The notes under the pieces were generated by a model that had not been told where the DNA came from, did not search any database, and saw only the letters and a list, made by a program, of their open reading frames with translations. A program made the translations under genes and the position numbers. From Asaia bogorensis (GTDB taxonomy: Bacteria; Pseudomonadota; Alphaproteobacteria; Reyranellales; Reyranellaceae): 52,362 nucleotides of DNA. Location: contig CAMDQJ010000011.1 in NCBI GenBank assembly GCA_945905835.1, positions 1 through 52,362 on the forward strand. The letters run 5' to 3'. Each line of letters starts with the position of its first letter. Positions within the stretch are counted from its first letter, which is position 1. Of this stretch, positions 38,937 through 50,075 are shown piece by piece.

Positions 38937-40028
38937 ATGACGTCCATTCCCGAGTGTTTTTCCGAGAGCTACGCCGAGGCGCGCGCCAAGTTCTGCGGCG
39001 CGGCGGCCAGCGGCGGCGGCGCACTGCGCTCGTGGCTTAACCCGTATGGACGCGGGCCGAACGGGGAACCGCTCTATCTCGACACGGCGCGATTCGGGCC
39101 CGTCGATGCCGCCAACGTGCTGGTGCTGATCTCGAGCACGCACGGCGTCGAGGGCCATTGCGGCTCGGGCGCGCAGATCGCCTGGCTGAGCACCGGCGGC
39201 CCGGCCAGGCTGCCCAAGGATACCGGCGCCCTGCTGGTGCACGCCATAAATCCGCATGGCTTCGCGTGGACACGGCGCGTCAACGAGGACAACGTCGACA
39301 TCAACCGCAACTTCGTCGACCACGACAAGCCCTATCCGAAGAACGAAGGTTACGTGGCACTTGCCGATGCCATCCTGCCCCGGCAGTGGAACGAGGCGTC
39401 GAGCGCGGAGACCGAGCGCACGTTCCAGGCCTTCGCCCAGAAGCACGGCGCCTACGGGCTGCAGGGTGCGCTGAGTAGCGGCCAGTACACCCATCCGGCC
39501 GGCATCTTCTACGGCGGCAGCAAGCCGGTCTGGAGCAACCGCACCATCCGCGCCATCGCGCGCGAGGAGCTCGGCCGGGCGCGCCGCATCGGCATCATCG
39601 ACTTCCACACCGGCCTCGGCCCGTTCGGCCATGGCGAACTGATCTGCGCCGTGCCGCCCGGCTCCAAGTCGTTCGACCGCGCCAAGGCCTGGTTCGGCGA
39701 CGAAATGACCTCGCCTGAATCGGGCACGTCGACTTCCGCCATCGTCGTCGGCGTCATGACCGACGCCTTCGCACAGGAATTGCCCGATGCCGAAGTGACG
39801 ATGATCGCCCTGGAATACGGCACCTACTCGGTACCGGAAGTGCTGGGCGCGGTGCGCCAGGACAACTGGCTGCACCAGCGCGGCGATCTCGCCTCACGCG
39901 AGGGCAAGGCCATGAAGGCCAACATGAAGGAGCGTTTCTTTCCGGCCGGTGACAAGTGGCGGGAGATGGTGTGGGCGCGCGCCGACCAGACGATCGGCTG
40001 GATACTGAAGGGCTTGAGCGGCGGGTGA
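38937..40028 (+). CDS. DUF2817 (M14-like) metallopeptidase family protein, 363 aa
   Basis: The protein begins MTSIPECFSESYAEARAKF and has the zinc-binding motif STHGVEGHCGSGAQ (H-x-x-E). It continues with HAINPHGFAWTRRVNEDNVD, the NRNFVDHDKPYP segment, and DFHTGLGPFGHGELIC near residue 215, containing the third zinc His. This is the DUF2817 branch of zinc carboxypeptidases. Substrates are unknown; related M14 enzymes cleave C-terminal residues or amide bonds. Its TGA overlaps the GTG of the next gene. Confidence 0.86.
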   Translation: MTSIPECFSESYAEARAKFCGAAASGGGALRSWLNPYGRGPNGEPLYLDTARFGPVDAANVLVLISSTHGVEGHCGSGAQIAWLSTGGPARLPKDTGALLVHAINPHGFAWTRRVNEDNVDINRNFVDHDKPYPKNEGYVALADAILPRQWNEASSAETERTFQAFAQKHGAYGLQGALSSGQYTHPAGIFYGGSKPVWSNRTIRAIAREELGRARRIGIIDFHTGLGPFGHGELICAVPPGSKSFDRAKAWFGDEMTSPESGTSTSAIVVGVMTDAFAQELPDAEVTMIALEYGTYSVPEVLGAVRQDNWLHQRGDLASREGKAMKANMKERFFPAGDKWREMVWARADQTIGWILKGLSGG

Positions 40029-41845
40029 ACGACCAGAGTCCCGCCCCCGATCTGGGCGACGATCCCCTGCGTCAGCGGCTGCGGCGCGCCTTGCGCCGTG
40101 CGGCGCTGTTCAGCGACCTCGACCAGGTGGCCATGGAAGCGGTCGAGCGCGAACTGACTCTCGTCAACCTGCCCGGCGGCGCGCCGCTGTTCCGCGAGGG
40201 CGATGCCGCCGATGCGCTCTACGTGGTGGCCAGCGGCTGCCTTGGCGTCTTTCGCAGCGACCCCGACAGCCCCGAGCCGGTGCTGATCGCCGACATCCCG
40301 GCGGGCGACATCGCCGGCGAGATGTCGCTGCTCGCCCACAGCAACCGCACCCGGACGGTGGCGGCACTGCGCGACAGCGAGGTCTGGCGGCTGGGCCAAA
40401 GTGACTTCGAGCGCCTGACTTCGGAGCATCCGCAGGCGCTGACGACGCTCACGCGCAAAATCGCCATCCGTAGTGCCTTCAGCAAGGTCCGCCGCGGCAC
40501 CCAGCCGCGCACCTTCGCCCTCCTGCCGGCGGGGCCGGACGTGCCGGCGGCGCGCTTCGCGGTATCGCTCGCCGGCTCCCTCGGGCGGCTGAACGACTTC
40601 GTCCAGATCCTCGGTCCCGACTCTTTCGGCCAGTCAGCGGAATGGTACGCCCAATGCGAGGCCGACTCGGCCTACGTCGTCTACCGCGCCGATGCGACGC
40701 CGACGCCCTGGACCGAGCTTTGCCTCCGCCAGGCCGACTGCCTGGTGGTCGTGCGCCGCGCCGACAACGACAAGCCGACCTCGGTGCCCTTTGCGCTGGA
40801 GACGGCGGAGACCAGCGGCGTCTTCCATCGTCGCCGCGAGCTGGTGCTGCTGCACGAAGGCCACGATCCCAAGCCGGGCAGCACGTCGGTGCATCTCGCC
40901 GACAGTGCCTATGGCCAGCACCATCACATCCGCCTCGACATACACAGCGATTTCGACCGCCTGGCGCGCCTGCTGACCGGCCAGGCAGTCGGCGTGGTAA
41001 TGGCGGGCGGCGGCGCGCGCGGCTTCGCCCATATCGGCGTGGTCCGGGCGCTGCGCGCGGCGGGCGTGCCGATCGACCTGGTCGGCGGCTCGAGCATGGG
41101 CGCGATCATGGCGGCTGGCGTGGCGGCGCGCTGGAGCGACGAGGAGATGGTCGAGCGCTTCCGCCGCGCCTTCGTCGAGACAAACCCGCTCAGCGACTAC
41201 ACGGTGCCGACGATATCGCTGTTCTCCGGCCGCCGCGTCGAGCGCCTGCTGCGCATGGCCTTCGACGACTATGACATCGAGGACCTGCCGTTGCCGTTCT
41301 TCTGTGTCACCGCCAACCTCACCGCCGGCCTCCCCGAGATGCACAACCGCGGCAAGCTGTGGCGCTGGCTGCGCGCGACGGTCTCGCTGCCGGGCGTGTT
41401 GCCGCCCTTCATCTCGGCGGGCCAGGTCCATGTCGACGGCGGCGTCATCGACAATTTTCCGGTACGTCCTATGCGCAAGCTGCGGCGCGGCGTCACCATC
41501 GGCGTCGGCATCGACACCGGCGGCGCCGTTTCGGCCGGCGCCGATGTCGTCGAGCCGTGGTCGGCCTGGGAGTTCTTCAGCCGCATGATCTGGCGGCGCA
41601 AGGAGACGCTGCCGATCCCCTCGATCGTGCGCATCCTGCTGCGCTCGGCATTGGTCTCGAGCGCCGCCCGCGACATCGCGGACCGTGCCGCCGCCGACCT
41701 GCTGATCGTGCCGCCGGTCAGCCATTTCGACCTGCTCGACTGGACGAGCTTCGACGCCTCCGTCGAGATCGGCTACCGCGCCGCCATGGACGCGCTCGAC
41801 AAGGCCAAGACCCTGCCGGTCGGCACGCGCATCTTCGTCGGCTAG
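40025..41845 (+). CDS. Cyclic-nucleotide-binding/patatin-like phospholipase (NTE family)
   Basis: An N-terminal cyclic-nucleotide-binding domain (residues ~20-140: LFREGDAADALYVVASGCLG and PAGDIAGEMSLLAHSNRTRT) is joined to a C-terminal patatin lipase domain. The patatin motifs are complete: oxyanion GGGARGFAHIG (Gly328-Gly333), nucleophile Ser357 in GGSSMGA and the Asp471 of VDGG. The middle region resembles the NTE/RssA linker. The enzyme should hydrolyse lysophospholipid or lipid esters, possibly under cNMP control. The GTG at 40025 overlaps the upstream DUF2817 stop. The CTAG ending this gene also serves the minus-strand DUF2000 gene. Confidence 0.9.
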   Translation: MNDQSPAPDLGDDPLRQRLRRALRRAALFSDLDQVAMEAVERELTLVNLPGGAPLFREGDAADALYVVASGCLGVFRSDPDSPEPVLIADIPAGDIAGEMSLLAHSNRTRTVAALRDSEVWRLGQSDFERLTSEHPQALTTLTRKIAIRSAFSKVRRGTQPRTFALLPAGPDVPAARFAVSLAGSLGRLNDFVQILGPDSFGQSAEWYAQCEADSAYVVYRADATPTPWTELCLRQADCLVVVRRADNDKPTSVPFALETAETSGVFHRRRELVLLHEGHDPKPGSTSVHLADSAYGQHHHIRLDIHSDFDRLARLLTGQAVGVVMAGGGARGFAHIGVVRALRAAGVPIDLVGGSSMGAIMAAGVAARWSDEEMVERFRRAFVETNPLSDYTVPTISLFSGRRVERLLRMAFDDYDIEDLPLPFFCVTANLTAGLPEMHNRGKLWRWLRATVSLPGVLPPFISAGQVHVDGGVIDNFPVRPMRKLRRGVTIGVGIDTGGAVSAGADVVEPWSAWEFFSRMIWRRKETLPIPSIVRILLRSALVSSAARDIADRAAADLLIVPPVSHFDLLDWTSFDASVEIGYRAAMDALDKAKTLPVGTRIFVG

Positions 41846-43217: not shown

Positions 43218-44453
43218 TCAATCCAGCGGATAGCGACCCTCGACATCCAGCGAAGTCGAGCCCAGCCAGCCGCGCCGCGTGCCGGCGAGCGTCGAGGCCA
43301 TCATCCGCGACATCACCGGCAGGTGGCAGGACGGTCCCATGAAGGCGTCGCGCAGCCAGCCGAGGGACCGGAGATTGGACTGGAAGAACGGCGTCAGCAG
43401 GTGGCTAGCGTGGCGATAGAAGCGCGTCGACGGCACCCGCCGCTGCTCGAACAGGCGGAGCGCATCGCCGACGCGATCCTCACCCGCCAACGAGCGGACG
43501 AGAGCATGCGCATCGAGCAGCACCAGGTTAGCGCCCTGGCCCAGTTGCGGGCTGGTGCCGTGGGCTGCGTCGCCCATGAACACGACCGGCCCGTCGCTCC
43601 AACCCGAGAGCGCGACATGGCGATAGCTCGCCGACGTGAACGCGGCGACGCCGTCGATGCGCTCGACCAAGGCCCGCGCCTCCGGCCACAGAGCCGTTGC
43701 CTCGGCCTTCCAAGCCGCGATGTCGGCCGGCGGATGCACCGTCCCGCCAACGATGGGCAGGCTCCAGAACAGGGTGACTCGGCGAGTCCCAGGTGCATCG
43801 TCCGGCAGGCGACCAACCGGGAGCAGGCCCATCATGACGGCCGTCCCTCGGAAGCGCTGGCGCAGCATGCCGTCGAAGTCGGCCGAGTCGTCCGTCACCG
43901 TCGCCCAGACGCAGCCCCAGGGATAGAGCGGCGCCCGCGCCTCGGGCATCAGGCGCTCGCGCAGGGCCGAGTGCGCGCCGTCGGCTACGATGACCACGTC
44001 GAACGGGCCATGTGCGGTGCCCGTGGTGTCCGAGAGATAGGCCCGCGCGCCGTCCTGCTCGATGCTGACGATCTCGGTCGACGTGACGAGGCTCGCCGCG
44101 GACCGCTTCAGCCGGCCGTATAGAAGCTCGAACAGGGCGCCACGGTGGATGCCGAGGCCGAACGCCCGTGGATGGAGCGTGCGGTAATGCAGGTCGAGAA
44201 CGCGGCGACCGCCGGCGGTACGGCCGTCGAGACCATCGATACGTGCACCCAGCGCCAGCGCCTCCTCGTCGAGGCCGAGGCGGGCCAGTACCGCGAGGCC
44301 AGTCGGCTGCAGCAGCAGCCCGGCGCCCAGCGGCCGCGGTTCTGCAAAGCGCTCCACCAGTGTGACGCGATGGCCGGCATCGGCCAGCAACGTCGCCGCA
44401 GCCTGGCCACCGACGCCGCAGCCGACCACCGCGATATCGAGCGAGATCCGCAC
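43218..44453 (-). CDS. FAD-dependent monooxygenase (PHBH/salicylate hydroxylase type)
   Basis: The 411-residue class A flavoprotein monooxygenase has an N-terminal Rossmann FAD motif, LDIAVVGCGVGGQAAATLLA, then HRVTLVERF. A DG-like segment (DVVIVADGAHSALRERL) and the second FAD motif VVFMGDAAHGTSPQLGQGAN near residue 285 complete the cofactor site. Family members hydroxylate aromatic or cyclic substrates with NAD(P)H and O2. The start is GTG at 44453 (MRISLDIAV). It lies 26 bp downstream of the SDR gene on the same strand and may be co-transcribed with it. The substrate is unknown. Confidence 0.88.
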   Translation of the reverse strand: MRISLDIAVVGCGVGGQAAATLLADAGHRVTLVERFAEPRPLGAGLLLQPTGLAVLARLGLDEEALALGARIDGLDGRTAGGRRVLDLHYRTLHPRAFGLGIHRGALFELLYGRLKRSAASLVTSTEIVSIEQDGARAYLSDTTGTAHGPFDVVIVADGAHSALRERLMPEARAPLYPWGCVWATVTDDSADFDGMLRQRFRGTAVMMGLLPVGRLPDDAPGTRRVTLFWSLPIVGGTVHPPADIAAWKAEATALWPEARALVERIDGVAAFTSASYRHVALSGWSDGPVVFMGDAAHGTSPQLGQGANLVLLDAHALVRSLAGEDRVGDALRLFEQRRVPSTRFYRHASHLLTPFFQSNLRSLGWLRDAFMGPSCHLPVMSRMMASTLAGTRRGWLGSTSLDVEGRYPLD

Positions 44454-44479: not shown

Positions 44480-45304
44480 CTAAAGTCCGCCGTTCACGAC
44501 CAGGGTCTGGCCGCTGACATAGTCGCTGTCGGGGCTGCAGAAGAGATAGACCGAGCCCGCCGCTTCCGTCGGCAGGCCGCCACGGCCGAGCGGGATCATC
44601 TGGTTCATGGCGGCGATACGGCCGCCCTGGACGCCGACCTTGACCTTGCGGCCCTGGACCTCGATCTCGCCTGCCTCGCCCTGGGAAAGCGGCTGAGTGA
44701 GGCGAGTCTGGATGTAGCCGAAGGCCACGGCGTTCACCGTGACGTCGTAGCGGCCGAACTCCTTGGCCAGCGTCTTGGTCAGGCCGACGATGCCCGCCTT
44801 GCCGGCTGAATAGTTCGACTGGCCGGCATTGCCGTTGACGCCCGAGGTCGAGGAGATGTTCACGACCTTGCGCACGATGCGCTTGCCGGCCGCGCGCTCC
44901 TTCTCGACCTCGCCGCGGAAATGGATCTGGAAGGCGCGCAGGATGCGGAACGGCGCGGTCAGGTGCACGTCAAGGATGGCGTACCACTGCTCGTCCGTCA
45001 TTTTCTGGATGACGCTGTCCCACGTGTAGCCGGCGTTGTTCACGATGACATGGCAGCCGCCGAAGGCGTCGACCGCCGTCTTGACGATACGGTCGCCGAA
45101 ATCGGGCTTGGCCACGTCGCCGACGCAGGCCACCGCCTTGCCGCCCATCTTCTCGATGGCGGCGATGGTTTCCTCGGCCGGCCCCTCGTCGATGTCGTTG
45201 ATCACGACCCTGGCACCGTCACGCACGAGGCGAAAGGCGATTTCCTGACCGATGCCGCGACCCGAGCCGGTGACGATCGCCACCTTGCCGTCCATCTGAC
45301 CCAT
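44480..45304 (-). CDS. SDR family oxidoreductase (3-hydroxyacyl-CoA dehydrogenase-like)
   Basis: The 274-residue classical short-chain dehydrogenase has TGSGRGIGQEIAFRL for the dinucleotide, VNNAGYTWD, the catalytic Ser in NISSTSGVNG and the Tyr-x3-Lys in SNYSAGKAG. It ends SDYVSGQTLVVNGG. It is upstream of the FAD monooxygenase and downstream of the two MaoC-like genes, so it probably oxidises the 3-hydroxyacyl-CoA made by the hydratase. A repeat-containing 152-bp gap separates it from the MaoC gene. Confidence 0.88.
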   Translation of the reverse strand: MGQMDGKVAIVTGSGRGIGQEIAFRLVRDGARVVINDIDEGPAEETIAAIEKMGGKAVACVGDVAKPDFGDRIVKTAVDAFGGCHVIVNNAGYTWDSVIQKMTDEQWYAILDVHLTAPFRILRAFQIHFRGEVEKERAAGKRIVRKVVNISSTSGVNGNAGQSNYSAGKAGIVGLTKTLAKEFGRYDVTVNAVAFGYIQTRLTQPLSQGEAGEIEVQGRKVKVGVQGGRIAAMNQMIPLGRGGLPTEAAGSVYLFCSPDSDYVSGQTLVVNGGL

Positions 45305-45456: not shown

Positions 45457-45882
45457 TTAGGCCGCCGCGACCGTCGCGTGGCCCTGCAGCGTGTCCTGGC
45501 CGTTCTGGTTGGTGCACTTGACCTCAAGGTCGATCAGCTTCTCGCCGTTCTCCTCGCGCTTGCCGGTGACCTTGCCGGAGAGCGTGATGACGTCGCCCAC
45601 CCAGGTGATCGAGGTGAAGCGCGTACCGAGCCGGCGGACGCGGTCGCGTGGCGCGTAGCTGGTGACCAGGCGCCCGAGGAAGCCCATCGACAACATGCCG
45701 TGGGCGAAGACGTCCTTGAAACCGAACTTCTTGGCGAAGTCGATGTCGACATGGATCGGATTGTGGTCGCCCGAGCCGCCGCAATAGAGCGCGAGCTGGT
45801 GGCGGCTGATCGGCGGCAGGACGATCGGCTTGATCGCGTCGCCGACCTTGACCTCCGCGAACTTGGGAACGGGTGCGGTCAT
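45457..45882 (-). CDS. MaoC-type (R)-specific enoyl-CoA hydratase, catalytic subunit
   Basis: The 141-residue hot-dog protein carries the hydratase-2 motif YCGGSGDHNPIHVDIDFAKK, with the catalytic Asp-x4-His, then DVFAHGMLSMGFLGRLV. It should hydrate a trans-2-enoyl-CoA to the (R)-3-hydroxyacyl-CoA. Directly upstream is a second hot-dog protein lacking the motif, and heterodimers of this kind are known (for example ChsH1/ChsH2). The gene lies 9 bp after its partner, and the SDR follows across a repeat-containing gap. Confidence 0.87.
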   Translation of the reverse strand: MTAPVPKFAEVKVGDAIKPIVLPPISRHQLALYCGGSGDHNPIHVDIDFAKKFGFKDVFAHGMLSMGFLGRLVTSYAPRDRVRRLGTRFTSITWVGDVITLSGKVTGKREENGEKLIDLEVKCTNQNGQDTLQGHATVAAA

Positions 45883-45891
45883 GTGTTCCTC

Positions 45892-46356
45892 CTACTTCTT
45901 CGCGGCGTCGGGATTGCGCACGACGGTGGTGCCAGTGACCTTGGCCACCAGCTTGCCCGCCTGGTCTTTCATCGAGGTCTCGTGGACCACGAACCACAGG
46001 GCGCCGCCCTTCTTGTCGTAAATGTCGACGATCTTCTGCTGGCAGGTGATCTTGTCGCCGACGAAGACCGGCGCGTAATAGTCGTAGTGCTGCTCGCCGT
46101 GCAGGATCAGGCCTATATCGACGTCGATCAGCTTGAGCAGCGCGCCCTTCTCGGGGTCGTCGTTGGTGATGGCCTGCAGGAAGGTCGGCGTCACCGGGAT
46201 CTTCGGATAGCCGGCCTTCTTGGCGGCGGTCTCATCGACATAGATCGGATCTTCCTCGCCGATGGCCTTGCAGAACAGCTTGAGCTTGCCGGCCTCGGCG
46301 ACGCTCGAATAGGCGTTGAACGTGTGGTCGATGTGCTTCTTGTCGATCTGGACCAC
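45892..46356 (-). CDS. MaoC-like N-terminal (FAS1-type) hot-dog protein, hydratase partner subunit
   Basis: The 154 residues (VQIDKKHIDHTFNAYSSVAE after the GTG start) have the hot-dog pattern of the N-terminal half of MaoC-type dehydratases: LFCKAIGEEDPIYVDETAA, IPVTPTFLQAI and HGEQHYDYYAPVFVGDKIT. The catalytic Asp-His pair of the downstream hydratase is not seen, so it is likely a structural or substrate-binding partner. The GTG at 46356 follows GGGAGGAAGAC. It lies just downstream of a terminator after the thiolase gene, which implies its own promoter or readthrough. Confidence 0.82.
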   Translation of the reverse strand: MVQIDKKHIDHTFNAYSSVAEAGKLKLFCKAIGEEDPIYVDETAAKKAGYPKIPVTPTFLQAITNDDPEKGALLKLIDVDIGLILHGEQHYDYYAPVFVGDKITCQQKIVDIYDKKGGALWFVVHETSMKDQAGKLVAKVTGTTVVRNPDAAKK

Positions 46357-46426: not shown

Positions 46427-47626
46427 TTACTCGTAGCGGCCGACGATGGCGACGCTGGAAATGTTCTCGCGCGGCGCGCCGCCGAGATTGTGCGTCATGC
46501 CGATGCGCGGGTTCTTGAGCTGGCGCGGGCCGGCCTTGCCCTGGATCTGCAGGTACATCTCGTAAAGCATGCGCAGGCCCGAGGCGCCGATCGGATGGCC
46601 GAAGCACTTGAGACCGCCGTCGATCTGGCAGGGGATGGTGCCATCGGCGTCGTAGAAGCCGTCGAGCACATCCCTCCAGCCCTTGCCGGTCTCCGAGATG
46701 TGCAGGTCTTCCATGGTCACCAGCTCGGTAACCGAGAAGCAGTCGTGGACCTCGAACATCGAGACCTCGTCGCGCGGGCTCTTGATGCCGGCCTCTTCAT
46801 AGGCCTTCTTGGCGGCGATGCGCGTGGTGTGGAAGTAGCTGCCGTCCCAGGAGTTATGGCCCGACTCGGAGCCGTTGGAGACCGAGAGCTGCAGCGCCTT
46901 GACGCTGACGATGTCTTTCTTGCCCAGCGCCTTGGCGATCTCGGGCGTGGTGACGATGGCCGCCGCCGCACCGTCCGACACGCCGCAGCAGTCGAACAGG
47001 CCGAGCGGTGAGGCGATCATCGGGGCGTTCAGGATGGTCTCCATCTCGACGGCCTTCTGCAGATGGGCCTTCGGGTTCTTGGCGCCGTTCTGGTGGCTCT
47101 TCCACGAGACGTGGCCAATCGCCTTCTTGAGGTCCTCGCCGCTGACGCCATGCGCCGTCATATAGGCCGTGGCGAGCTGAGCGAAGTTGCCCGGCGCCGT
47201 GCCGCTGGCGTTCCACAGGGCCTGCAGCGGGCCGCCACGGCCGCCGGGAAGGCCGCCGTAGCCGGTGTCCTTCAGCTTCTCGACGCCGAGAGCCAGGGCA
47301 AAGTCGGCCGCGCCCGAGGCCACGGCGTAGCAGGCGCCGCGGAAAGCCTCGGTGCCGGAAGCGCACATGTTCTCGACATGCGTGACCGGAATGTTGGGCA
47401 GGCGCAGCGTCGTACTGAGCGGAATGCCCGACTTGCCGACGTGCACTTCATCGATCGCGGTGGAGAACCACGCGGCCTGGAGCTGGTTCTGGTCGATGCC
47501 CGCGTCCTTCAGGCACTCCTTGTAGGCTTCGAGCATCAGCTCCTCGGCGCCGCTGTCCCAGCGTTCGCCGAACTTCGAGCAACCCATTCCGAGAATAGCG
47601 ACCTTGTCCTTGATGCCCCGAGCCAT
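46427..47626 (-). CDS. SCP2-type thiolase (acetyl-CoA acetyltransferase family)
   Basis: The 399-residue thiolase begins ARGIKDKVAILGMGCSKFG. The nucleophilic Cys88 lies in HVENMCASGTEAFRGACYAV. Later come the motif EVHDCFSVTELVTMEDL and the C-terminal GLKCFGHPIGASGLRMLY with His and base residues. SCP2-type thiolases cleave 3-oxoacyl-CoA, often branched or steroid chains, and in archaea one is in a channelling complex with HMG-CoA synthase and a DUF35 protein. Here the gene follows the fused HMGCS-like/DUF35 gene by 55 bp on the same strand, consistent with such a complex. A terminator follows it. Confidence 0.9.
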   Translation of the reverse strand: MARGIKDKVAILGMGCSKFGERWDSGAEELMLEAYKECLKDAGIDQNQLQAAWFSTAIDEVHVGKSGIPLSTTLRLPNIPVTHVENMCASGTEAFRGACYAVASGAADFALALGVEKLKDTGYGGLPGGRGGPLQALWNASGTAPGNFAQLATAYMTAHGVSGEDLKKAIGHVSWKSHQNGAKNPKAHLQKAVEMETILNAPMIASPLGLFDCCGVSDGAAAAIVTTPEIAKALGKKDIVSVKALQLSVSNGSESGHNSWDGSYFHTTRIAAKKAYEEAGIKSPRDEVSMFEVHDCFSVTELVTMEDLHISETGKGWRDVLDGFYDADGTIPCQIDGGLKCFGHPIGASGLRMLYEMYLQIQGKAGPRQLKNPRIGMTHNLGGAPRENISSVAIVGRYE

Positions 47627-47681
47627 GGCAGGCCTCCTGTAGTGGCGTTGGAATTCTAGACCTTTGTCCGGTGGAAGGCGA

Positions 47682-49124
47682 TCAAATCGGCGCCGCCTTC
47701 CAGAAATAACGCTTGAAGCCGCCGCGCATGATGTCGTTGTCGCGGATTCGGAAGGTCATGCGCATCTTGGCGCCGACCTTGACCTGATCCTTGTCGCTGT
47801 CGGTGAAGTCGGCCATGAAGCGCCCGCCCTCGGGGAAGGTGATCATGCCGTAGTAACCCGGCGGATCCGGCGAATAGACCAGCGAATCGGCGGTGAACGA
47901 CATCACCGCGCATTCGAGGCCGGCCATCGCATAGGGATCCTGGCTGTCGATGGCATGGCAGTTGGGATTGACGCAGACCTGGCTGCGCGGAAACTGCACG
48001 GTGCCGCAGACCTTGCACTTGCCGCCGACCAGGCCGTAGATCATGTCGCGCTTGCGCCACAGGACCGAGAGCGCGGTCTTCTTGTCGAACTCCGCGCGCA
48101 TGCCCTTGTCGATCGGCAGCATCTCGTTGAAGGCGAGGAACTTCATGTAGTTCTTCTCTTCCTTGCGCCGCGCCAGCCAGCCCGACAGGCCCTTGCGCTT
48201 GGGCAGCTTGTCCTTCTCGGCCGTGACCTCGAACACCAGGATGTCGACGCCCTGGCCGAAGGCCACGACCATGATCTTGTCGCCTTCCTTGGCGGTCTCG
48301 AGCGCATCGACCAGCATGACCAGCGCGTGCGCCGCACCGGTGTCGCCCAGCGCGGCGCCCAAAAGATCGCGCACGGCTGTTTCGGCGATGCCGCAGAACT
48401 TGGCCATTTGCTTCGGCACCGCCGGCATCAGGCTGGGCATGATGAAGTGGGTGATGTCGGCGCCTTTAAGCTTGCAGGCGGCGAGGCCGGCCTTGATCGC
48501 TGGCGGCACGATCTTCGAATAGCCCTCGTCGCGGATCCAGCGCTCTTCCCAGCCGTAGTCAAAGTCGGTTTCGTCGCCGCGGAAATGGTCGACGAAATCC
48601 ATCGACACGGAGTGACGGCCGACCAGCTTGGCGATGACATTCTCGGTGCCGCACAGAAGTGCCGCCGCGCCGTCGCCGTAGTTCAGCTCGTTCGACGAGG
48701 CGACCCGGGCCATGCGCTTGTCGGCGGCGGCGACGAGAGACGGCGCGCCGTCCTTCGAGGCGTTCAAGCCGGCGATTAGCGCCGAGGTGCCCGCCTTCAG
48801 CGAGCCGCCGATATCTGTCGTGGAAAGATTCTGCTCGACGTTCAGCGCCGTGCCGATGACGCCGGCATTCTGGCGATCCTTGAAGGGATGCGTCGTCGAG
48901 GCGAAGTAGATGTTGCGAACGTCCTCGGCCTTGTGGCTCGTGAGGCAGTCGCGTGACGCCTCGACCGCCATGGTGATCGAATCCTCGTCCCAGTTGGCCA
49001 TCGAGCGCTCGCCCTTGGCGAGGCCGCGCAATCCGCCGGCGAACCATTTGTTGGCGTCATAAACGGCCTGACGACTGAGGCGCAGGCGCGGGACATAGGC
49101 CCCGAAGGCCACGATTCCGACCAT
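47682..49124 (-). CDS. Fused HMG-CoA-synthase-like/DUF35 (OB-fold zinc-ribbon) protein, 480 aa
   Basis: Residues 1-300 have the thiolase-like fold of HMG-CoA synthase/ketoacyl synthase III: MVGIVAFGAYVPRLRLSRQA, DRQNAGVIGTALN, NLSTTDIGGSLKAGTSAL, SSNELNYGDGAAALLCGTEN and LGDTGAAHALVML. Residues ~355-480 form a DUF35 acyl-CoA-associated domain with a zinc ribbon (Cys370, Cys373, Cys384, Cys389) and OB-fold (YYGMITFPEGGRFMADF). The nucleophilic Cys expected before KAGT is Leu109, and the F-H-x-P His motif appears replaced (FIMPSL). A canonical synthase reaction is thus unlikely; a scaffold or altered role with the adjacent thiolase is inferred. ATG 49124 follows GGAGGAAACAAC. Confidence 0.85.
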   Translation of the reverse strand: MVGIVAFGAYVPRLRLSRQAVYDANKWFAGGLRGLAKGERSMANWDEDSITMAVEASRDCLTSHKAEDVRNIYFASTTHPFKDRQNAGVIGTALNVEQNLSTTDIGGSLKAGTSALIAGLNASKDGAPSLVAAADKRMARVASSNELNYGDGAAALLCGTENVIAKLVGRHSVSMDFVDHFRGDETDFDYGWEERWIRDEGYSKIVPPAIKAGLAACKLKGADITHFIMPSLMPAVPKQMAKFCGIAETAVRDLLGAALGDTGAAHALVMLVDALETAKEGDKIMVVAFGQGVDILVFEVTAEKDKLPKRKGLSGWLARRKEEKNYMKFLAFNEMLPIDKGMRAEFDKKTALSVLWRKRDMIYGLVGGKCKVCGTVQFPRSQVCVNPNCHAIDSQDPYAMAGLECAVMSFTADSLVYSPDPPGYYGMITFPEGGRFMADFTDSDKDQVKVGAKMRMTFRIRDNDIMRGGFKRYFWKAAPI

Positions 49125-49226: not shown

Positions 49227-50075
49227 CTAACTTCCGACTGGCGGAACGACGCCTGGCGGTCCCGGCGGCAACTCGCGTGGCGAGCCGATGTAGCCGGCAT
49301 CCGGCGGGATCATCAGGAACTTCTTGCCGTCCTTCACCTCGACCCAGGGCAGGACCGTCTTGACCTTGCGCGTCACCGAGGCGGCGATGGCGCCCGCGAC
49401 CGTGCCGCCCTCGCCCAGCAACTCGAGGTTCTTCTGCGTAGGATAAACCACCGTGCGCTTGCCAGCCAAGGCCTCGGTGAGAGCGACGCTCGGCCGGATC
49501 CAGATCGAGTCGACGGATTCGCTGCCGTCATGCAGTGCCACCTGATCAGCCGGCGCCTCGGCCAGGAAGAACCAGGTGTCGAAGCGCTTCGGCACGAAGG
49601 CCGGCGTGATCCAATGCGCGAACGGCGTCATCAAATCGGTGGCAAGATCGAGATCTTCGGCCTCGACGGCATCGGTGATCGACGCGGTGTTCTTGACCAG
49701 CCGGTCGCGCCAACGCTCCTCGATCGGCTTCAGATCGGCCGCGCCGATCAGCCCGTTATGGCCGCGCTTGCGCGCCAGCAGCACACCGCACTCCTCGAAG
49801 GCCTCGCGGACGCCGGCGATGCGGAAGGCGAGCTCTGAGTCGGACAGGCTCGCAGAGCCAGTGCAGCGACTGCGCATGCGGGCGTCGCTGTCGGCCTTCT
49901 CAACCTTGCCGCCGGGAAACACGATGGCGCCGGAAAACGAATCGATCTGGTGATGACGCACCACCATGAAGACCTCGAGCGGCGACGTGGCATCGCCTCG
50001 TTTGCTCGGCCGCAGCATCAGGACGGTGGTGGCGGGAACGGCGGGGGCCGGTTCCTTCTTGGGTTTGTCGCTCAT
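49227..50075 (-). CDS. NUDIX hydrolase, NUDT7/NUDT19-like (CoA-type), 282 aa
   Basis: The product has a VFPGGKVEKADSDARM start of the Nudix domain and the catalytic helix VREAFEECGVLLA (R90-E91-x2-E94-E95-x-G97). There is a larger than normal spacing of about 33 residues between GGK and REAFEE, a feature of NUDT7/NUDT19 CoA and acyl-CoA diphosphatases. The remaining part, FAHWITPAFVPKRFDTWFFL, fits that class. It likely trims CoA or acyl-CoA. It is upstream of the HMGCS-DUF35 gene on the same strand (102 bp) and divergent from the alpha/beta hydrolase gene (88 bp). Confidence 0.86.
   Translation of the reverse strand: MSDKPKKEPAPAVPATTVLMLRPSKRGDATSPLEVFMVVRHHQIDSFSGAIVFPGGKVEKADSDARMRSRCTGSASLSDSELAFRIAGVREAFEECGVLLARKRGHNGLIGAADLKPIEERWRDRLVKNTASITDAVEAEDLDLATDLMTPFAHWITPAFVPKRFDTWFFLAEAPADQVALHDGSESVDSIWIRPSVALTEALAGKRTVVYPTQKNLELLGEGGTVAGAIAASVTRKVKTVLPWVEVKDGKKFLMIPPDAGYIGSPRELPPGPPGVVPPVGS

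Follow-up and report, generated by a model that had tools for sequence, protein, structure and literature searches.

A stretch of 52,362 nucleotides from Asaia bogorensis (contig CAMDQJ010000011.1 of assembly GCA_945905835.1; the window) encodes a single protein in which a half resembling 3-hydroxy-3-methylglutaryl-coenzyme A synthase (HMGCS; EC 2.3.3.10) is joined to a DUF35 half, and its gene lies 55 bp upstream of that for an SCP2-type thiolase. The synthase half has lost the catalytic residues of HMGCS, a loss found across the whole family of fused proteins, and the family travels with the thiolase in an operon whose order is kept among relatives. We consider it reasonably probable that the fused protein is a pseudo-HMGCS/DUF35 accessory subunit of a catabolic SCP2-type thiolase, within a five-gene operon for (R)-specific β-oxidation. 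The features at the center of this proposal are as follows.

47682 to 49124, reverse strand: fused pseudo-HMGCS/DUF35 gene, 480 amino acids; the frame is open to 49160
48225 to 49124, reverse strand: half resembling HMGCS and ketoacyl synthase III (KAS III), approximately residues 1 to 300; Leu109, Thr77, and a non-His residue replace the catalytic Cys, Glu, and His
48798 to 48800, reverse strand: Leu109 codon, at the HMGCS Cys114 position (coordinates computed from the start at 49124)
47685 to 48062, reverse strand: DUF35 half, from approximately residue 355; zinc ribbon Cys370/373/384/389 and OB-fold, with a conserved RYFWK tail
46427 to 47626, reverse strand: SCP2-type thiolase of NCBIfam NF004810 (PRK06157), with Cys88, HDCF, and GHP

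The ATG of the fused gene at 49124 is directly preceded by GGAGGAA, and residues are numbered from this start, which gives the number in the 492-residue open reading frame minus 12. The thiolase ATG at 47626 likewise has AGGAGG nearby.

Loss of catalytic residues in the synthase half

The domain assignments agree with a sequence-only reading of this DNA, which had described one open reading frame joining HMGCS-like and DUF35 parts next to the thiolase. The Pfam families ACP_syn_III_C, zf-ChsH2, and OB_ChsH2_C each exceed their cutoffs in the fused protein, the latter two with 27.3 bits (cutoff, 23.2) and 34.7 bits (27.1), and these scores together with the four zinc cysteines identify the second half as DUF35. 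The best NCBIfam match of the N-terminal half is the archaeal-type HMGCS PRK04262, at 172.5 bits and short of the cutoff of 244; TIGR00748 scores 118.4 bits, below its cutoff of 353.35. Among solved structures, this half is most closely related to PhlA, which is nearest by sequence, and to the HMGCS of the archaeal thiolase/HMGCS/DUF35 complex; the C-terminal half matches chain 6esq_E of that complex. The predicted structure of the fused protein has a mean pLDDT (predicted local distance difference test) of 72.9 and is weak in much of the DUF35 half and at residues 37 to 46, 180 to 183, and 336 to 362. Its best fold matches are 6esq_I (Z score of 38.0 over 321 residues, 3.0 Å), 9skh_C (37.3), and PhlA 5mg5_A (36.8), with MucABC at about 34 and catalytic HMGCS at about 31 coming next. 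It is the synthase half that carries the fold match, and the absence of a DUF35 chain among the 50 fold matches listed is no evidence against a DUF35 fold.

To assess conservation, 6esq_I and two PhlA sequences were aligned with the full-length fused proteins, 130 distinct ones in all. The 130 rows derive from 141 loci, after removal of products shorter than 430 residues, stop-containing or identical sequences, and three loci without a fused gene, and all of them remain distinct over residues 20 to 470. The residue before KAGT in the window protein is Leu109, as had been noted from the sequence, and no homologue has Cys in this column (0/130), which instead holds Gln in 72, Leu in 47, Arg in 3, Met in 2, and Pro, Ser, Ala, Gly, or Thr in 1 each, with 1 gap. 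The loss extends to the catalytic Glu82, whose column (Thr77 in the window protein) contains Thr in 125 rows, Ser in 3, Ala in 1, and Gly in 1, and Glu in none of the 130. The catalytic His motif F-H-x-P is replaced in the window protein, as the sequence-only reading had suspected, and reads FIMP; the His238 column holds Pro (117), Ala (6), His (2), Ser (2), and others (3), with a His within three columns in only 3 of 130 rows. The alignment is less certain in this region than around the Cys and Glu motifs. In both PhlA sequences, the Cys, Glu, and His of HMGCS are replaced by Gly, Cys, and Gln, respectively.

A substitute nucleophile is not apparent. Within six columns of the old position, 7 of 130 rows contain a Cys, in scattered places, and the sole Cys of the N-terminal half found in more than half of the rows, C60 (109/130), aligns with Ala in 6esq_I and PhlA. 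The alignment therefore shows no conserved Cys elsewhere in the old active site, which could have overturned the reading.

Whether the change from Cys to Leu is itself conserved had been raised as a check, and the answer is divided. What is conserved is the absence of Cys, together with that of Glu; Leu is not. In a quick tree of 61 representatives (86% identity cut) and three references, built without the nucleophile column, the seven Leu rows require seven changes, of which starred branches force six, with gains and losses indistinguishable; three rows (L141, L138, and L140) sit on long branches. The codons concerned are mostly CAG for Gln (67/72) and CTG for Leu (39/47), one base apart. As the residue at this position has been swapped so freely, with Leu gained or lost six times or more, it is unlikely to be catalytic. 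By this comparison of sequences, the Leu is local and the absence of Cys is family-wide, and the idea that a rare local error to Leu accounts for the missing Cys is rejected: all 130 homologues lack the Cys, and Leu is one of several residues that replace it. The synthase half is probably noncatalytic.

The zinc ribbon described in the window protein is intact, and all four zinc cysteines are present in 121 of the 130 homologues. The remaining nine (L115, L118, L125, L126, L127, L129, L131, L132, and L136) indicate that the ribbon can decay; seven of them read C-T-S-x, and two keep no zinc Cys. The zinc-less L132 and L136 also have Arg at the nucleophile position and the only His residues in the His238 column (AVHEP), and they form a subfamily of their own.

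Pairing with the thiolase and the surrounding operon

The thiolase is a clear member of NF004810/PRK06157 (692.9 bits; cutoff, 403), and its set of thiolase motifs, comprising Cys88, H294-D-C296-F, and GHP with H344, is intact, in agreement with the sequence-only reading on Cys88. The thiolases that partner the fused proteins of other loci are similar, with the Cys88 nucleophile and the HDCF His each present in 97 of 99 rows and the HDCF Cys in 98 of 99 (from an earlier set of 99 rows). Among solved structures, 7yvy, named acetyl-CoA acetyltransferase, scores 205.7 bits against the window thiolase, and PhlC chains match weakly, at 64 to 68 bits.

The same genome (G000) encodes three other thiolase-like proteins, each with a small DUF35 protein encoded separately beside it (L001, L002, and L004, on contigs C30, C5, and C76). 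These read YDCF, YDSF, or YDAF where the window thiolase has HDCF and score best against other families, and with Tyr in place of the HDCF His they are candidates for steroid-type aldolases. As these three carry the Tyr, the fused partner accompanies the one of the four DUF35-coupled thiolases that has standard residues. The genome also contains a second, weaker HMGCS/KAS III-like match (G000:C66:12398-13321; 81.8 bits).

Co-occurrence was examined in 385 genomes of the class of the window, the Alphaproteobacteria, with cutoffs of E ≤ 1e-20 for the fused protein and E ≤ 1e-100 for the thiolase family. The fused protein matches 68 genomes and the thiolase family 64, all of which are among the 68, so that no genome of the 385 has the thiolase family without a fused match. 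The four extra genomes give weak matches to the HMGCS-like N-terminal half (28 to 34% identity) that end before the DUF35 half. Of 74 fused places, 69 were used and five weak or fragmentary ones excluded; in 68 of these 69 the thiolase gene follows in the same orientation at a downstream distance of up to 10 kb, and in 58 of up to 300 bp. Among fetched loci with both genes, the thiolase is within 300 bp in 118 of 128; two loci with 1.5 kb of flank show none, and eight have too little flank. As fused homologues from 28% to 95% identical adjoin a related thiolase in most loci examined, the pairing is not due to chance. The family is rare in a phylum-wide sample (10 of 398 genomes). The laboratory model Caulobacter vibrioides, which has an NF004810-family thiolase over the cutoff and a match to PF01796 (DUF35 OB-fold), may be a convenient carrier; zf-ChsH2 has no match there and the fused gene was not seen, and a match to the HMGCS family NF003274 says little because 11 of 14 controls, E. 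coli included, also match.

The genes downstream of the thiolase, and three others that recur in related loci or stand nearby, are as follows.

45892 to 46356, reverse strand: MaoC-like partner subunit, FAS1_DH_region, of the MFE-2 hydratase-2 N-terminal type, without G-D-x-N-P-I-H
45457 to 45882, reverse strand: MaoC-like catalytic subunit, HadB-like, with a G-D-H-N-P-I-H motif
44480 to 45304, reverse strand: short-chain dehydrogenase/reductase (SDR), whose best solved relative is (3R)-hydroxyacyl-CoA dehydrogenase 2et6
43218 to 44453, reverse strand: FAD-dependent monooxygenase-like gene, 26 bp after the SDR gene, a doubtful part of the unit
49227 to 50075, reverse strand: 282-amino-acid protein encoded upstream of the fused gene, approximately 64 to 75% conserved in Reyranella-type loci
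39956 to 41845, forward strand: cyclic-nucleotide-binding/patatin (NTE-type) phospholipase, found in many related loci

The MaoC and SDR genes had been pointed out as suppliers of hydratase and dehydrogenase steps, and their matches bear this out. Against the N-terminal domain of MFE-2 hydratase 2, the first MaoC protein scores 46.8 bits (cutoff, 27), and against FAS1_DH_region it scores higher, at 113.4 bits; the motif of the second is that of hydratase 2. The SDR matches 2et6, a yeast MFE-2, at 222.8 bits, with the next solved structure at 161.7. The order fused gene-thiolase-MaoC-MaoC-SDR is kept in Reyranella and Enhydrobacter relatives and in several deeper loci (L056 and L059 to L062), and the most distant homologues of one fetched set (54 to 59% identical) keep only the fused protein and thiolase as close relatives. 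The monooxygenase-like gene is a doubtful member because it is seen in many, not all, related loci, and the 282-amino-acid protein has no match in Pfam or NCBIfam.

A similar context is found on plasmids. Plasmid records with a match number 55, and the 17 that we opened come from Alpha- and Betaproteobacteria, Actinomycetes, and a single haloarchaeon. All 17 loci have an SDR, a hydroxyacyl-CoA dehydrogenase, a hydratase, or an acyl-CoA dehydrogenase nearby, some also carrying ring-hydroxylating dioxygenases, CoA transferases, or ligases. In 15 of the 17 the thiolase is annotated as the next gene; it is next by tblastn in L121 and lies immediately upstream in the haloarchaeal locus. None of these 17 annotated loci showed polyketide genes. 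The haloarchaeal protein (L141, Natrialba magadii plasmid pNMAG02) is a 481-residue HMGCS-like/zinc-ribbon protein beside a thiolase, with Thr for the catalytic Cys.

Proposed role of the fused protein

It can be hypothesized that the operon performs one round of (R)-specific β-oxidation with hydratase 2, (3R)-hydroxyacyl-CoA dehydrogenase, and SCP2 thiolase steps. The MaoC pair and the SDR would make a 3-ketoacyl-CoA, which CoA would cleave to a shorter acyl-CoA at the thiolase, with Cys88 alone performing the acyl transfer. The DUF35 half would most likely dock on the thiolase, as PhlB does on PhlC, and help to wall the acyl-CoA site. The HMGCS-like half would be a rigid partner, corresponding to PhlA in its relation to PhlC, which keeps the assembly in one piece and shuts the substrate chamber. 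The substrates are probably bulky or branched acyl-CoAs. We infer the formation of such a complex, as we do the direction of the reaction and its substrate.

Several observations weigh against this proposal. The Fisher test of co-occurrence (p = 9e-69) ignores the relatedness of the genomes, and 5 of 73 thiolase places have no adjoining fused gene. Four of the five are second copies, each accompanied by a complete pair elsewhere in its genome (G082, G197, G290, and G358), and in the fifth genome (G356), which has a single thiolase copy, the fused gene sits on another contig. Given these five places, the thiolase can be encoded apart from its partner, and a strict gene-by-gene pairing is not borne out; the unpaired copies may borrow the subunit or work without it. 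Polar residues are also kept in the supposedly inert synthase half (128 of 130 rows have R182 and as many have E193; H266 is kept in 124, H180 in 120, and H226 in 107). Substrate and direction are both taken from the neighboring genes alone, and the 19 window proteins scanned include no ligase or acyl-CoA dehydrogenase. Finally, the structure predicted for the thiolase, modeled as a single chain like the fused protein, has a mean pLDDT of 46.7 (from a 20-row alignment) and was not used. The four second copies (L149, L148, L147, and L146, in the order given above) are 68 to 76% identical to the window thiolase, and no relative of the fused, DUF35, MaoC, or SDR genes of the operon was found in the 8 to 10.5 kb around them.

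The kept polar residues allow a further speculation, doubtful but worth stating, that a pseudoenzyme runs this whole family of catabolic thiolases. The decayed synthase, fused to DUF35, would then have become a second, noncovalent acyl-CoA chamber involving W-E-E-R and R182, with His180 and His266 in addition in the Proteobacteria; it would gate or hold bulky substrates for the thiolase, steroid ring fragments included, and could be a general solution for thiolysis of oversized acyl-CoAs. A related alternative, rather unlikely in our estimate, is that the HMGCS-like half has a repurposed CoA or acyl site and would hold an acyl-CoA or hand it to the thiolase, with no bond chemistry of its own. 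It is favored by the conservation of R182, H180, H266, and the stretch W192-E193-E194-R195 (0.86 to 0.92, weighted), E193 among them, and by the archaeal complex, in which thiolase, HMGCS, and DUF35 are reported to share the CoA site (PMC6392133, PMC12329534). However, the Arg residues at 182 and 195 are shared by the catalytic 6esq_I and by both PhlA sequences, and CoA-binding residues are reported to be missing from the PhlA-type complex (PMC6392133).

The sequence-only reading had left the choice between a scaffold and a new chemistry, and the second of these finds no positive evidence here. KSQ domains catalyze decarboxylation with Gln in place of Cys, and Gln is found more often than any other residue at the old nucleophile position (72/130), so that a KSQ-like decarboxylation, or a hydrolysis, might be imagined, perhaps with the conserved His180, His226, or His266. 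Such a new catalysis appears improbable. Leu has been gained or lost at least six times at the nucleophile, and the old His position is without a conserved His, which together disfavor a KSQ-type decarboxylase; in the four Actinobacteria rows the nucleophile is Pro, Ala, Gly, or missing, with His180 in none and His266 in one; and C60, present in 109 of 130 rows, aligns with Ala in catalytic HMGCS and PhlA alike. A biosynthetic pair, acting as a Friedel-Crafts C-acyltransferase like PhlACB or as a condensing thiolase, would suit PhlA as the closest solved relative of the N-terminal half by sequence but is very improbable, as the partners at the 17 annotated loci are those of β-oxidation, CoA activation, and in some cases ring hydroxylation, with no polyketide genes, the thiolase scores 64 to 68 bits against PhlC and 205.7 against 7yvy, and one family member lies within an estradiol-type catabolic gene set.

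If the accessory-subunit proposal is true, genes annotated as "HMG-CoA synthase," "OB-fold domain-containing protein," or "3-oxoacyl-ACP synthase III C-terminal domain protein" would encode a thiolase subunit and not a synthase, and a false mevalonate-type annotation would be removed from many degradation-type clusters. For expression of these thiolases, coexpression of the neighboring fused gene would then be advisable.

Comparison with known systems

The claim that this is an undescribed acyl-CoA module holds in part. The new elements are that the fused protein makes up a broad family, that this family has a Gln/Leu signature, and that it is coupled to the thiolase; no description of the fused protein as a thiolase subunit was found in the literature searched, as far as its accessible text extends. 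The combination of a thiolase, a DUF35 protein, and an HMGCS-like subunit without Cys and Glu has a precedent in PhlA (PMC6392133), and a gene similar in description and order is in print as an unassigned "HMG-CoA synthase" of estradiol catabolism (PMC7793797).

Plasmid p3 of Novosphingobium sp. ES2-1 encodes a 467-residue fused relative, 29% identical and with Leu at the nucleophile position, next to an NF004810 thiolase (415 bits; cutoff, 403), and the pair is surrounded by genes for indolepyruvate ferredoxin oxidoreductase, VOC, P450, and acyl-CoA dehydrogenase proteins. This gene set resembles the edc operons of Caenibius/Novosphingobium tardaugens, where EGO55_13555, described as an "HMG-CoA synthase," lies beside the thiolase EGO55_13550 as the fused gene does in the window, a match made by gene order and description from the accessible text. 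In that text, EGO55_13555 is one of two edc genes that the authors could not place; they doubted that it has condensation activity, and it was removed only with the whole operon OpA (PMC7793797). By analogy, again through order and description, EGO55_13555 is probably a distant member of the fused family, which would explain it and supply a candidate for one of the two unassigned estradiol-pathway genes. The ES2-1-type member is itself distant from the window protein, on a long branch. Two other candidates for a characterized relative were set aside on what the sources at hand contain: VceA/VceB of Sphingobium, a vanilloyl-acetate-converting enzyme and a thioesterase, show no link to the fused family, and an acetone-degrading Desulfotomaculum cluster has a separate DUF35 protein, with no fused protein seen.

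Among complexes of known structure, the multicomponent acyltransferase PhlACB of Pseudomonas protegens (5m3k; 9skh), which C-acylates phenols independently of CoA, is similar in combining an HMGCS-like part without Cys and Glu, a thiolase with Cys88, and a DUF35 part. PhlA is reported to lack the key Cys and Glu, and only residues of PhlC act (PMC6392133); PhlA is also called an inactive member of the thiolase superfamily (PMC2954200). PhlACB nevertheless consists of three separate chains, whereas here the A and B halves form one frame; PhlC is only a distant relative of the window thiolase, no phl-type genes were seen here, and the nucleophile position is Gly in PhlA and mostly Gln or Leu in the fused family. 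The archaeal thiolase/HMGCS/DUF35 channelling complex (6esq, 6et9) has the same three building blocks, but its synthase is catalytic, through Cys114 and Glu82 (PMC6392133), while these key residues are replaced in the fused protein. BbsAB (benzoylsuccinyl-CoA thiolase), Ltp2-ChsH2, and Sal-Shy likewise couple a thiolase-fold enzyme to a DUF35 partner, and no HMGCS-like half is described for them. The steroid aldolases Sal and Ltp2 use a different set of catalytic residues (PMC12329534), unlike the window thiolase with its intact thiolase residues.

The operon as a whole resembles a peroxisomal arrangement. The MaoC pair, the SDR, and the SCP2-type thiolase correspond to the parts list of the MFE-2/SCPx branch: both would combine an (R)-hydratase-2 type pair, a (3R)-hydroxyacyl-CoA dehydrogenase-like SDR, and an SCP2-type thiolase. 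Unlike MFE-2 and SCPx, the bacterial operon encodes these parts in separate genes and adds the fused accessory protein.

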